From Symbiobacterium sp. (lineage in GTDB: Bacteria; Bacillota; Sulfobacillia; UBA995; UBA9673): a stretch of DNA of 62,211 nucleotides. The notes beneath the pieces were generated by a model, which searched no databases, had not been told where the DNA came from, and worked only from the letters and a program-made list of their open reading frames with translations. Position numbers and translations under genes: made by a program. Every line of letters begins with the position of its first letter. Within the stretch, counting starts at the first letter, position 1. The stretch covers positions 1 through 62,211 of the forward strand of contig DYFB01000077.1 in the NCBI GenBank assembly GCA_020725405.1, in the 5' to 3' direction. This document shows, in pieces, positions 16,790 to 21,934 of this stretch.

Positions 16790-18568
16790 TCAGGGCTTGA
16801 GGCGGCCCATCAACACGGCCGCTTCGGCCCGGGTGAGTTCCCGGAGCGGCCGGAAGGTCCCGTCCGGGTACCCCTGCAGGAGGCCCTTCTGACCGGATTC
16901 CACCACGCCGCCGAGAGCCCAGGCGGCGATGAGGGTTGCATCGGTGTACTGCGGGGGTGTGGCTCCGGCCGGGAGCGGGCGGCCGGCCGCGATTCGCGCG
17001 GCCACGACCGCCGCCTCCTGGCGGGTGAGCCAGCGATTCGGCTCGAAGAGGCCGGCGTCGGTGCCTGTCATGTACCCCGCGCCCAGGACGCGGCGGACCG
17101 AGTCGTAGTACCAGCTTCCGGGCAGAACGTCGGAGAGCGGGGGCGTCGTCGCCGGGGCCGGTCCGAGGTCGAGGGCCCGTGCGAGCAGGGCGGCGAACTC
17201 GGCCCGGGTGACGGGGAGCTCGGGTTGGTAGCGCGCGTCTCCGGTCCCCTCGACGATGCCGGCGGCAGCCAGGCGGGTGATGACGGTGTAGGCCCAGTGG
17301 TCGCTGGCGACGTCCTCGAACGGGAGGTCAGCCGCCGGAGGTGGCGAGCTGCCGGGCGGGGTGGTGCCGGGCGCGCCTCCGTCATCGGGCGAGGTCCCGC
17401 CGCCGGGCGGGGTGCCGCCACCGGGAGGGGTGCTCGCAGGAGTGGTCCCGCCGCCCTGGCCGGGGCCGGGGGCCGAAGCGGGCTTCCCGAGCCCGCCCGA
17501 CGCTCCGGCTGTTCCGGCGATGACCTGCCAGAACCGGGCGTCCTCCTGCCCGAGCGACCAGAGAGCCACGCCCGCGAGGTCGTAGCGGTTCACTAGGTCG
17601 ACCTTGAAGTCGATTGAGTGGCTGTTCTCGTACCAGACCTGGTGCTTCACCCCGCCGCTGTAGTAGGTGAAGTAGGGGACCTTGTAGGTGTCGTGCCAGT
17701 AGACGGTCGCCCCGTAGCGCTCGGCCAGGCCTGGAGCCTGCCAGGCCCTGACGCTGCTTACGCCTCGGGAGGACCAGTCGTAGCCGTAGCCGGCGAGGCC
17801 GAGGAGGAGCTTCTCCTTGGGCACGACCGTGAGGGAGTACTTGATGACCCGCTCGACCCAGTCGGCGGCGGCGACAGGCCCGGGGCCGGACCAGGTCCCG
17901 TGCTGGTCGTAGGTCATGAGGACGAGGTAGTCCACGACCCTCCCCAGGGCGGCGAAGTCGAAGCACGCGGCGAAGCTGTTGATGGAGTCGTCGGGCGACC
18001 ACTTGGCCGGCACGGCCATGGTCACGAGAAGGCCGGCCGGCTTGAGCCTCGCCGACAGCTCCTCCATGAAGGCGGTGACGCCCGGACGCGTCCACGGCGG
18101 CATGCCCTCGAAGTCGATATTGACTCCGTCGTAGCCGTTGTCGACGAGCATTCTGTAGATGTTCTCAATCGAGCGCTGCCGCAGGCGGGGGTCCATCAGG
18201 ACACCGTTGTCGCTGAGCTTGTTGATCAGGGGGAGGACCTTCTGCCCGCTCTTCCGGACCATGTCGGCCAGGGCAGCGTGACCTGTTTCGCGGGGCCAGA
18301 GGGTGCCGTCGGCCCTCAAGGTGTACCAGTAGGGTGAGAAGAAGTCAATCCTGGACAGGTTGGCCTTGAGGGAGTTCATGGGTTCGGGCTCACTTCCCCA
18401 CTGCGCCCAGTAGCCCATGAACATCTTCCGGGAGAATGACTCGGCGAGGGCCGTCCGGGGGTGGTTTACGGCGGCGGCGAGGGTGACGACGAGCGCCGCG
18501 GCGACAGCCGCGGCCAAGAGGCGGCCGGGAATCCCGCGGGTCCTGCGGATACAAGCCGTCGGTCTCAT
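16790..18568 (-). CDS. Secreted GH18 glycoside hydrolase with C-terminal SLH domains
   Basis: Signal peptide; YDGVNIDFEGMP (GH18 DxDxE-type); FEDVASDHWAYTVITRLAAAGIVEG SLH motifs; SD AGGAGG before ATG 18568. Confidence 0.88.
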   Translation of the reverse strand: MRPTACIRRTRGIPGRLLAAAVAAALVVTLAAAVNHPRTALAESFSRKMFMGYWAQWGSEPEPMNSLKANLSRIDFFSPYWYTLRADGTLWPRETGHAALADMVRKSGQKVLPLINKLSDNGVLMDPRLRQRSIENIYRMLVDNGYDGVNIDFEGMPPWTRPGVTAFMEELSARLKPAGLLVTMAVPAKWSPDDSINSFAACFDFAALGRVVDYLVLMTYDQHGTWSGPGPVAAADWVERVIKYSLTVVPKEKLLLGLAGYGYDWSSRGVSSVRAWQAPGLAERYGATVYWHDTYKVPYFTYYSGGVKHQVWYENSHSIDFKVDLVNRYDLAGVALWSLGQEDARFWQVIAGTAGASGGLGKPASAPGPGQGGGTTPASTPPGGGTPPGGGTSPDDGGAPGTTPPGSSPPPAADLPFEDVASDHWAYTVITRLAAAGIVEGTGDARYQPELPVTRAEFAALLARALDLGPAPATTPPLSDVLPGSWYYDSVRRVLGAGYMTGTDAGLFEPNRWLTRQEAAVVAARIAAGRPLPAGATPPQYTDATLIAAWALGGVVESGQKGLLQGYPDGTFRPLRELTRAEAAVLMGRLKP

Positions 18569-18691
18569 GACGAACCTCCTCGGAGCGGTCAGGAGTGGAA
18601 CCGGCCGGGTGATGTGGTCCGGACCGGCAAGTGAGTTGACATAAGATTGCGCTTGGCGTAGGTCCATTCCTTCAGGTAAAGGTGGGTAACG

Positions 18692-19351
18692 GTGGAAAGG
18701 ACCAAGCAGAACTGGATGCGTGACCGCCTGGGGTGGCTGGGCCTCGCCGTCGTGTCGGCGGCCGCTCTCGTCCCCATTACGGTCACGGCGGCCGCTGGCA
18801 GGCTGTCTTGGGGAGACGCGGCCGTCCGCGACCTCGTCCTTGCCTATCGCCTGCCGGCTCTCGAGTGGACTATGCTGGTCATGAGCTGGCTCAGCTCGGA
18901 GTACGTGACGCCCCTGGTCCTGGCGGCCGTGGTGGCCGTCGGCTGGCGCCGGGCGCGGCGGCGGGTGCTCGTCGCCGCCGCCGTTGTCGCGACCTCGACC
19001 CTCTGGCAGATAGCCCTGAAAGCCGTTGTCGGACGGCCGCGCCCCGAGCCCCTTCTCTATCCCCTGTGGCACGGGGCGGGGTTCCCGAGCGGCCACGCGC
19101 TGACGGCTCTCGTCCTCGCCTACGTCGTCTGGCGGCTGGCCCCGGCTCTCGGGTTCTCTCGACGGGCCCAGACCCCCCTCGGCTGGGCCGTCGTCCTCTA
19201 CCCGCTCCTGGTCGGGGTGAGCCGTATCTACCTCAACTCCCACTATCTCAGCGACGTCACCGGCGGAGTTCTGCTCGGGCTCGGGCATCTCGGGCTGGCG
19301 TTCGGTCTTTTCGGCGCGGACTGGCTTGACCGGGAGGGGATCCGGTCGTGA
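18692..19351 (+). CDS. PAP2-family phosphatase (membrane)
   Basis: KAVVGRPRPEP, FPSGHALTAL, SRIYLNSHYLSDVTGG. Confidence 0.9.
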   Translation: MERTKQNWMRDRLGWLGLAVVSAAALVPITVTAAAGRLSWGDAAVRDLVLAYRLPALEWTMLVMSWLSSEYVTPLVLAAVVAVGWRRARRRVLVAAAVVATSTLWQIALKAVVGRPRPEPLLYPLWHGAGFPSGHALTALVLAYVVWRLAPALGFSRRAQTPLGWAVVLYPLLVGVSRIYLNSHYLSDVTGGVLLGLGHLGLAFGLFGADWLDREGIRS

Positions 19352-19812
19352 GCGGCGGGACCCCGCGCCGGACCGTCGTCATCGATGCCGACGCCTGCCC
19401 GCGGGGAGCGGTCGAGACCGTGCGGCGCCTCCAGCCAGGCTTCGGCTACCAGGTCTTGACCGTGGCCTCCGTCAACCACGTTATCGAGCCCTGGGGTCCC
19501 TGGCACGAGCATGTCGTCGTCGACGCTGGGCCCCAGGCGGCCGACCTCGCCGTGGCCAACGCGGCTCGGGCCGGCGACGTCGTGGTCACCCAGGATTGGG
19601 GGCTTGCCGCGCTCGTCCTGGCGAAGGGCTGCCGGGCGGTCTCCCCCGGCGGCTACACCTTCCGCCCGGAGACCGTGGACCTCCTTCTGGAGGAGCGGCA
19701 CGTCAAGGCCAAGGTGCGCCGGGCGGGAGGGCGGACGCGCGGGCCGCGGGCGCGAAGCCGCGAGGACGAGGAGCGCTTCGAAAAGGCTCTCAGGGCCGCG
19801 CTCCGGGCGTGA
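19348..19812 (+). CDS. YaiI/YqxD (DUF188) family protein
   Basis: VVIDADACPRGAVETV, DVVVTQDWGLAALVLAKG. Confidence 0.9.
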   Translation: MSGGTPRRTVVIDADACPRGAVETVRRLQPGFGYQVLTVASVNHVIEPWGPWHEHVVVDAGPQAADLAVANAARAGDVVVTQDWGLAALVLAKGCRAVSPGGYTFRPETVDLLLEERHVKAKVRRAGGRTRGPRARSREDEERFEKALRAALRA

Positions 19813-20638
19813 CTCCCGCAGCCCCCTGCGGCCGGGCGTCAGCGTCCGACCAGGGCTTGATGTCGACGACCGGCGATCCGGGCCGGGCGTCGAGCCCGTC
19901 GACGAGGAGCCGGCCATTCTGCCGGGCCACCAGGCGCACGAGGCACAGACCGATCGGGTTGGGCCGGTGCGGGCTCCGCAGGGCGAAGACGCCCCGCTCC
20001 GGGCGGGACCGGTCTCCCTTTGGATGCCCCTTGAGCCGCCGGCGGTCCTCGCGGGAGACCTCGTGCATCCAGTAGGCTATCCAGAGGTAGGGGTAGTCCC
20101 TGGATTCCGGCCGGCCAGCCGTCTCGACGCCCTCCAGGGCCGGGGCGAAGCGCGGGAAGACCGTTATCTCCGCGAGGCGCGGGAACCCCGGCGGCACGTC
20201 CTCCCCGACCTCGGCGACCCGGGTCACCTCGCCCACGGCCTCGAGCCAGAAGGTGGAGGCCACCGAGGGCGTGACGCGGCCGAGGTAGTCGTAGATGGCC
20301 CGATGGAGGGCTTCGGCTCCGAGGTTCGAGCAGTGCTCCTTGGGGTCGGGCAGGCCCCCGAGGGCGACGAGGACGTCCTCATTCCGGATGGCCAGGGCCC
20401 CGTCGAGGGTCCGGCCCCGGGCGAGCTCGGTGAGGGCGCTCCCGCAGGCGATGGCGGCCGGGCAGCCGTGGACCTCGAAGCTGATGTCGGCTACCCGGCC
20501 GTCGGCCACCCGGATGTAGACCCGGAAGAGGTCCCCGCACCCGGGGTCGCCCGACTCCCCCGTGCCGTCGGAATCGTCCATCCTCCCGACGTTCCGGGGG
20601 TTCGCGAAGTGGTCGAGCACCTTGTCCCCGTAGCTCAA
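19790..20638 (-). CDS. Fusion of NifU/IscU-type Fe-S scaffold and TsaA/TrmO-type tRNA methyltransferase domain
   Basis: N: DKVLDHFANPRNVGRMDDSDGTGESGDPGCGDLFRVYI..GCPAAIACGSALTEL; C: SPHRPNPIGLCLVRLVARQNGRLLVDGLDARPGSPVVDIKPW. Confidence 0.85.
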   Translation of the reverse strand: MSYGDKVLDHFANPRNVGRMDDSDGTGESGDPGCGDLFRVYIRVADGRVADISFEVHGCPAAIACGSALTELARGRTLDGALAIRNEDVLVALGGLPDPKEHCSNLGAEALHRAIYDYLGRVTPSVASTFWLEAVGEVTRVAEVGEDVPPGFPRLAEITVFPRFAPALEGVETAGRPESRDYPYLWIAYWMHEVSREDRRRLKGHPKGDRSRPERGVFALRSPHRPNPIGLCLVRLVARQNGRLLVDGLDARPGSPVVDIKPWSDADARPQGAAGVTPGARP

Positions 20639-20693
20639 GCGGCATCCGTCCTTCCCTGGTCCCGCGGCCGGCCGGAGCCGATCCGCGCGTTGC

Positions 20694-20750
20694 CCCGCGG
20701 CGTCTCCGCCCGCGGCGTCCCCGCCCGCGGTGTCCCGCAGCGTCTCCGGT
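20694..20750. repeat. 15-bp GC-rich tandem repeat, about 3-4 copies, intergenic
   Basis: cccgcggcgtctccg / cccgcggcgtccccg / cccgcggtgtcccg / cagcgtctccgg. Confidence 0.8.
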
Positions 20751-21934
20751 TAGATAATGCCCATGTCCCGCCCGATGCGCCGGAAGACCTCGAGGGCGAA
20801 GTCGAGGTCGGCCCGCGTGTGGGCGGCGGAGATCATGACCCGGATGCGGGCCTTTCCGCGCGGCACGGTGGGGAAGCCGATGGCCATGGCGAAAATGCCG
20901 GCGGCGAACAGGGCCCGGCTGAACTCGCGGGCCCGGTCGGCCTCACCGACCATGACCGGGGTTATCGGGGTCTCGGTCCGCCCGGTATCGAACCCCAGCC
21001 GGCGCATCTCGCCCTGGAAGTAGCGAGCGTTCTCCCAGAGCTCGAGCACGAGCTTGTCGCTCGCTTCGAGAAGGCGGACGGCCTCAAGGTTGGCCGCCGC
21101 CTCGGCCGGCGTAAGCGACGAGGAGAACAGGAACGGCCGGCCCCGCTGCTTCAGGAGGTCGATGAGCGGGGTCGGGCCGGCGACGAACCCTCCGACGCAG
21201 CCCAGGGCCTTGGAGAGCGTCCCGATCTCGACGTCGATGCGCCCGTGGAGGTCGAAGTGGTCGACGATGCCGCGCCCGGAGGAGCCGAGGACCCCCTCGC
21301 CGTGAGCGTCGTCCACCATGGAGATGCAGCCGTACTCCTCGGCCAGGCGGGCCACCCCGGGGAGGTCGGCGATGTCGCCGTCCATGCTGAAGACCCCGTC
21401 GGTGACGATGAGCTTGCGGCCCTCGACGCCGGCGTCCGCCTTCAGCATCTCCTCGAGAGCGGCGAGGTCGAGGTGGGGATAGGGCTTGATCTCCGCCCGG
21501 CTGAGCCGGCAGCCGTCGATGATGCTGGCGTGGTTAAGCTCGTCGCTGTAGATGATGTCGCCCCGGCCCACCAGGACCGGGATGGTCGCGAGGTTGGCGT
21601 TGAAGCCGGATTGCAGGACGACGGTCGCCTCGGTCTTCTTGAACCGGGCCAGCTCCCGTTCCAGCTGCTCGTGGATCGTCATCGTCCCGGCGATGGACCG
21701 GACCGCGCCGGGGCCCACCCCGTACTCGTCGATGGCTCGCTTGGCCGCCTCCTTGAGGCGGCCGTGGGCGGCTAGGCCGAGGTAGTTGTTCGAGCACATG
21801 TTGAGCACGCGTCGCCCGCCGATGACCACCCAGGCCCCCTGCTCGCTCTCCAGGGTGCGGATGTCGTTGTACAGGCTCGTCTCGTGCAGCTCGCGCAGCT
21901 CCTCGTCCACGAAGGCCAGCGCTCTTCTGGACAC
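20750..21934 (-). CDS. kbl: Glycine C-acetyltransferase (2-amino-3-ketobutyrate CoA ligase)
   Basis: [48 protein letters not shown] motif. Confidence 0.9.

Follow-up and report, generated by a model that had tools for sequence, protein, structure and literature searches.

In a 62,211-nucleotide stretch of the genome of Symbiobacterium sp. (contig DYFB01000077.1; the whole stretch is referred to here as the window), a single minus-strand open reading frame joins a NifU/IscU-type scaffold domain to a TrmO-like, SAM-binding barrel. The reading that we favour, at a probability of roughly 0.4, is that the product is a metal–sulfur-cluster scaffold coupled to a SAM-binding barrel and would serve metal-cofactor handling, rather than housekeeping Fe-S assembly or classical m6t6A methylation. 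The frame begins at a TTG codon, and its coordinates match those in a preliminary description of this DNA, which had proposed a NifU-like N-terminus and a TrmO-like C-terminus within one protein of 282 aa; Pfam and an AlphaFold model confirm both domains. The NifU_N match (E 4.1e-39) spans a complete domain and the TrmO_N match has an E-value of 6.9e-22, both far over cut-off. The gene, its parts and its upstream neighbour are listed below.

20750..21934, minus strand: kbl-type gene (glycine C-acetyltransferase family, TIGR01825), directly upstream on the same strand in 3/3 fusion genomes
19790..20638, minus strand: NifU_N–TrmO_N fusion gene, 282 aa, TTG start (ORF and Pfam; kept in L057/G533 and L036/G531)
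20273..20632, minus strand: NifU/IscU-type scaffold domain, residues 3–122, of the ‘GCPAAI’ paralogue clade (Pfam PF01592; tree)
20537..20539, minus strand: Cys34 codon, IscU ligand 1 (alignment to IscU structures and NifU set)
20462..20464, minus strand: Cys59 codon, IscU ligand 2 (same alignment)
20444..20446, minus strand: Cys65 codon, an extra Cys (alignment of NifU set)
20330..20335, minus strand: His102–Cys103 codons, IscU His/Cys ligands (alignment to IscU structures and NifU set)
20171..20272, minus strand: linker, residues 123–156, with a low-confidence loop at 144–152 (alignment, AlphaFold model)
19847..20170, minus strand: TrmO_N (UPF0066) SAM-binding beta-barrel, residues 157–264, Gln-less and without the C-terminal DPRxxY domain (Pfam PF01980; NCBIfam TIGR00104)
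19976..19978, minus strand: Arg221 codon (AF0241 Arg82, SAM carboxylate contact; alignment, AF0241 structure)
19889..19891, minus strand: Asp250 codon (AF0241 Asp111, SAM amino-group contact; alignment, AF0241 structure)
19856..19858, minus strand: Lys261 codon (AF0241 Lys122, SAM contact from the partner subunit; alignment, AF0241 structure)

The AlphaFold model shows two well-predicted domains (pLDDT 83.6), whose relative orientation, given a pTM of 0.55, is not fixed by the model. Its fold matches, A. fulgidus IscU (4eb5) and the SAM-bound TrmO-like UPF0066 protein AF0241 (2nv4), are also the closest solved structures by sequence. The loop at residues 144–152 corresponds to the position expected for the Gln that contacts SAM in true TrmO. 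Searching the whole class with the TrmO half, and scanning GTDB contigs, recovered the same head-to-tail architecture in two more genera of the same family, represented by genomes G533 (contig CAJXZV010000135.1; 70% identical to the window copy over residues 1–272) and G531 (62% identical over residues 9–268).

The scaffold ligands C34, D36, C59, H102 and C103 are all kept in the window and G533 copies, as judged from alignment to IscU structures and a set of NifU domains; the scaffold cysteines, which the preliminary description had left to be checked, are intact in the window copy. Compared with A. fulgidus NifU-1/IscU (4eb5) and IscU (7c8m), the domain has the same fold, the same Cys-Asp-Cys-His-Cys ligands and 53–55% identity, but it adds Cys65 and the C-terminal SAM barrel, and it falls below the NifU_clost, NifU and IscU equivalog cut-offs of NCBIfam (TIGR03419, 142.7 against 187.9 bits; TIGR02000, 114.8 against 273.3; TIGR01999, 97.7 against 192.4). 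All three fusions have Cys65, where each of the other NifU sequences compared has Thr, Ser or Ala. When 42 NifU domains are placed in a tree, the fusions fall inside a paralogue clade with the motifs GCPAAI and HCSNLGA (SH-aLRT 98; supports for other nodes are given below as plain numbers). The housekeeping NifU clade (98) stands apart and holds the window genome's own NifU, encoded elsewhere in an IscR-NifS-NifU-MnmA operon; the fusion is the only non-housekeeping NifU_N gene in that genome. Other GCPAAI-type paralogues, from anaerobes of the phylum, share these motifs but are stand-alone proteins encoded inside a gene cluster, with Thr or Ser where the fusions have Cys65.

Within ~5 kb of 14 GCPAAI-clade loci (this set and the TrmO sets below being small, chosen by us from the top of the list, phylogenetically non-independent, and scored for families defined on the test set itself), genes for Fur were found at 9, NifX-family Nitro_FeMo-Co proteins at 7, MinD with an inserted ferredoxin at 7, DUF5320 at 7, Mrp/NUBPL at 6, DUF364 (putative heavy-metal chelation) at 4 and FmdE at 2, as against 0/20 in random phylum windows. 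One NifU paralogue (L136) lies inside an FmdE-Fur-FecBCD operon, so that both halves of the fusion are found separately in the same kind of operon. Desulfovibrio has a comparable gene set for its orange-protein complex, in which the MrpORP protein passes on Fe-S clusters in vitro (PMC6345978). The Mrp, MinD-type ATPases and NifX-family proteins of that system occur also in the window's genome, in a cluster on contig C37 (Mrp, two NifX, two MinD-ferredoxin and DUF134 genes), but the fusion gene lies outside it, on contig C73, and no NifU-TrmO protein is described in PMC6345978. G533 likewise has a cluster with Mrp, two MinD-ferredoxin and two NifX genes, and neither cluster has a NifU inside; a further genome, G258, has the NifX/MinD cluster and no fusion. 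Neither NifX nor MinD-ferredoxin genes were found in G531, a MAG of 450 contigs.

The G531 copy bears on whether the scaffold half still works as one. It retains C34, D36, C59, C65 and the TrmO half, but Pro-Arg replaces H102/C103, residues 1–8 and K100 are missing, and its NifU half evolves faster than its TrmO half (59% versus 68% identity to the window copy). The copy without H102/C103 thus sits in the sole fusion genome without the presumed partners, NifX and MinD-ferredoxin, a match that is only suggestive, as it has been seen once, in a fragmented MAG. The same losses are also what might be seen had the NifU half ceased to build clusters and become a structural or docking module (for NifS binding, for example) of a SAM enzyme, possibly one linked to the kbl product: the kbl-type gene precedes the fusion in every case, with a gap of 111 bp in the window, a gap of 2 bp in G533 and an overlap of 4 bp in G531. 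We regard this as rather unlikely, since two of the three copies keep all canonical ligands, with better conserved NifU halves (77% identity between the window and G533, dN/dS about 0.22), and order mates have a kbl gene but no fusion.

Other features of the locus may be recorded here. The widened kbl–fusion spacer of the window (20641–20749) holds short GC-rich repeat-like units, whereas in the relatives kbl and the fusion adjoin or overlap. A YaiI/YqxD (DUF188) gene on the plus strand (19348–19812) converges on the fusion gene, the last 23 bp of which (19790–19812) it overlaps; a DUF188 gene is convergent with the fusion in G531 as well. Further along, a minus-strand frame (16790–19288) encodes a glycoside-hydrolase-18-like protein with C-terminal SLH-type repeats, whose start is probably further downstream than annotated, because its N-terminal part is overlapped by a PAP2-phosphatase-like frame on the opposite strand (18692–19351).

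In TrmO, the residues that contact SAM are Gln, Asp, Arg and Lys (Kimura et al., PMC4132733). Three of the four contacts (R221, D250 and K261) are kept in 3/3 fusions, and Arg, Asp and Lys are near-universal among 85 TrmO domains from the phylum. The Gln (Gln22 of AF0241, Gln25 of E. coli) is replaced by G, D or A in the three fusions; by type of protein, it occurs in 20/20 DPRxxY TrmO, 0/3 NifU fusions, 0/13 FmdE fusions and 0/4 fusions to a cytidine-deaminase-like (CDA) domain. The C-terminal DPRxxY domain is also absent, the protein stopping about 18 residues past the barrel. Both absences matter in E. coli TrmO, which requires its DPRxxY domain for m6t6A formation and in which Q25A and D125A strongly lower m6t6A, while R92A and K136A abolish it (PMC4132733). 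Archaeal TrmO homologues have no such C-terminal domain and possibly act on another target; archaeal tRNA has not been found to contain m6t6A, and short TrmO-like domains have no established substrate (PMC4132733). The fusion shares with E. coli TrmO (YaeB, the m6t6A methyltransferase) the N-terminal barrel, but neither the DPRxxY domain nor an equivalent of Gln25, and it carries a NifU domain. It also resembles AF0241 (2nv4) and other archaeal-type UPF0066/TrmO_N proteins, which have the same kind of beta-barrel, SAM-bound in AF0241, with R82, D111 and K122 and no C-terminal domain, although AF0241 has Gln22 and the fusion falls in the Gln-less half of the TrmO tree. In AF0241 the barrel forms a homodimer with an inter-subunit SAM pocket. 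This half (97) comprises the NifU, FmdE and CDA fusions together with stand-alone proteins of the class; the DPRxxY clade (100) lies in the other, true-TrmO half, apart from the fusions.

The NCBIfam TrmO equivalog model, TIGR00104, accepts the fusion at 95.2 bits against a cut-off of 93.25; passed by 2 bits without the Gln or the C-terminal domain, it would lead automatic annotation to call the protein a tRNA methylase. The missing Gln, the missing DPRxxY domain and the place in the tree together argue that the fusion should not be named TrmO in a functional sense. The preliminary description had gone on to suggest a link between Fe-S status and tRNA modification; its two domains, intact cysteines and genuine fusion stand, but this link finds no support in a TrmO half that lacks the DPRxxY domain and the Gln shared by all 20 DPRxxY TrmO of the sample and that groups, in a well-supported half of the tree, with FmdE- and CDA-fused domains. 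The alternative offered there, a new substrate for the TrmO half, would fit these sequences better. A redox- or iron-sensing tRNA methylase, whose barrel would methylate t6A37 or another tRNA base with activity or stability tuned by the NifU cluster, is accordingly improbable in our judgement, even though the TIGR00104 threshold is reached, the fusion is the sole TrmO_N protein of the window's genome, and the SAM-pocket residues R/N/D/D/K are kept in 3/3 fusions. A context link was also considered, kbl being a threonine-pathway family gene and t6A containing threonine, and is weak because order mates have kbl without the fusion. Besides lacking two elements needed for full E. coli TrmO activity (PMC4132733) and falling outside the DPRxxY clade, the fusion co-exists in G533 with a separate Gln-type TrmO gene (L056), and most related genomes have no TrmO_N gene at all.

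That a frameshift, a chimeric contig or a mis-called stop joins two genes is scarcely credible, even with three fusion genomes that are metagenome assemblies or contig-level drafts, because the same architecture recurs independently in other genera, with the same junction, linker length and upstream gene at 60–70% identity, and purifying selection spans the junction. The frameshift or assembly join that the preliminary description named as a possible refutation is thereby discounted. Between the window and G533 fusions dN is 0.19 and dS 0.63, and most differences between copies fall at codon position 3 in both domains and in the linker; by this sequence evidence the fused frame is under purifying selection across NifU domain, linker and TrmO domain. 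The fusion looks like the product of a single origin inside one family, the copies grouping with supports of 99 and 98 in the two domain trees. None was found among 399 genomes of the phylum, among 154 genomes of the class outside the family, in 195 and 329 genomes of two other phyla (the same query gave 3.7e-168 on G540), or in the plasmids and phages searched. Two loci (L037 and L042) that extended tblastn ranges had suggested as partial fusions were rejected, their N-termini not being NifU, as were frames of 270–300 aa with TrmO_N, which proved to be FmdE, CDA, RNase H and tandem TrmO fusions. The literature searched, which does not extend to the InterPro architecture tables, gave no account of NifU_N with TrmO_N, nor any relevant paper on TrmO or TsaA in connection with NifU, FmdE or domain fusion.

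TrmO_N is clearly a promiscuous domain, being found in FmdE, CDA, RNase H and tandem fusions. In four genomes (L113, L118, L119 and L120, family f19) a cytidine-deaminase-like domain precedes a Gln-less TrmO domain, the surrounding operon being conserved (c15, c16, c17, c22 and c23 genes), in L105, L122 and L123 a Gln-type TrmO domain is fused to RNase HI, and L117:3460-4353 encodes an apparent tandem TrmO-like protein, with a degenerate N-terminal barrel followed by a TrmO_N domain. The FmdE fusions (L111, L112, L114–L116, L121 and L124–L130) resemble the NifU fusion in joining a Gln-less TrmO domain to a putative metal-handling domain, but form a separate clade and carry FmdE at the C-terminus, where NifU is N-terminal here. 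They adjoin cobalt/ECF, FecBCD or other metal-type transporter genes in 6/13 cases: cobalt/ECF transporters at L125 and L126, an ECF-like double ATPase at L114, FecBCD at L124, an NMT1-type ABC system with a QRPTase-like gene at L128, and FecB-like and DUF364 genes at L130. An earlier structural study reported that FmdE genes adjoin metal-ion transporters, and noted an FmdE-UPF0066 architecture (PMC2954224). In G531 an ECF transporter substrate component is itself fused to an FmdE domain (L217:1313-2335), and a stand-alone homologue of the ECF part adjoins Mrp in the window's genome (L213:3970-4593).

Short TrmO genes show similar surroundings. Within ~5 kb of 20 short TrmO loci of the phylum, FecCD and periplasmic-binding-protein (FecBCD-type ABC) genes occurred at 7/20, Nik/Opp-type ABC genes at 4–6/20, a CooC-like ATPase at 6/20 and FmdE at 2/20, each family being present in 0/20 random phylum windows. 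At L151 and L154 a GatB-like gene adjoins the short TrmO, a possible tRNA-side link that would speak against a metal role. Nearer to the fusion, the class's stand-alone short TrmO proteins in the same Gln-less tree half have no metal neighbours, and the one class locus of 11 that does (L174) has a Gln-type domain.

A metal-sulfur scaffold under the influence of a SAM barrel is favoured because the NifU half sits in the paralogue clade of Mrp/MinD/NifX/Fur loci, because the window's genome and G533 have Mrp/MinD-ferredoxin/NifX clusters with no NifU of their own, because the loss of H102/C103 in G531 coincides with the absence of NifX and MinD-ferredoxin, and because short TrmO and TrmO-FmdE genes adjoin metal transporters, to which the L136 operon may be added. 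Against this reading, the fusion's neighbours in the window are kbl and the DUF188 gene rather than metal genes, the NifX/MinD cluster is on another contig and can exist without the fusion, as in G258, and the stand-alone Gln-less relatives in the class are without metal neighbours. As a mechanism, the NifU half would take sulfide from the housekeeping NifS and build or hold a cluster for Mrp/MinD P-loop ATPases or NifX proteins; the SAM barrel, dimeric as in AF0241, would pair two scaffold domains; and SAM binding may control the loading or release of the cluster, unless control is exerted instead through methyl or alkyl transfer to a small metal ligand or a partner protein.

The wider interest of the NifU-TrmO fusion lies in the role of short TrmO domains. 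Such proteins occur widely in archaea and in anaerobic bacteria, where annotation routinely labels them tRNA methylases. A conserved fusion to a scaffold, together with the independent metal links of both halves, makes their role, in metal handling or in tRNA, a testable matter. We advance as a tentative possibility that archaeal-type short TrmO proteins are SAM modules of metal acquisition and metal-cofactor assembly rather than tRNA enzymes, represented here, through fusion to NifU, by a SAM-controlled, dimeric scaffold in a pathway of the orange-protein type; automatic TrmO labels on genes near metal transporters may be wrong.
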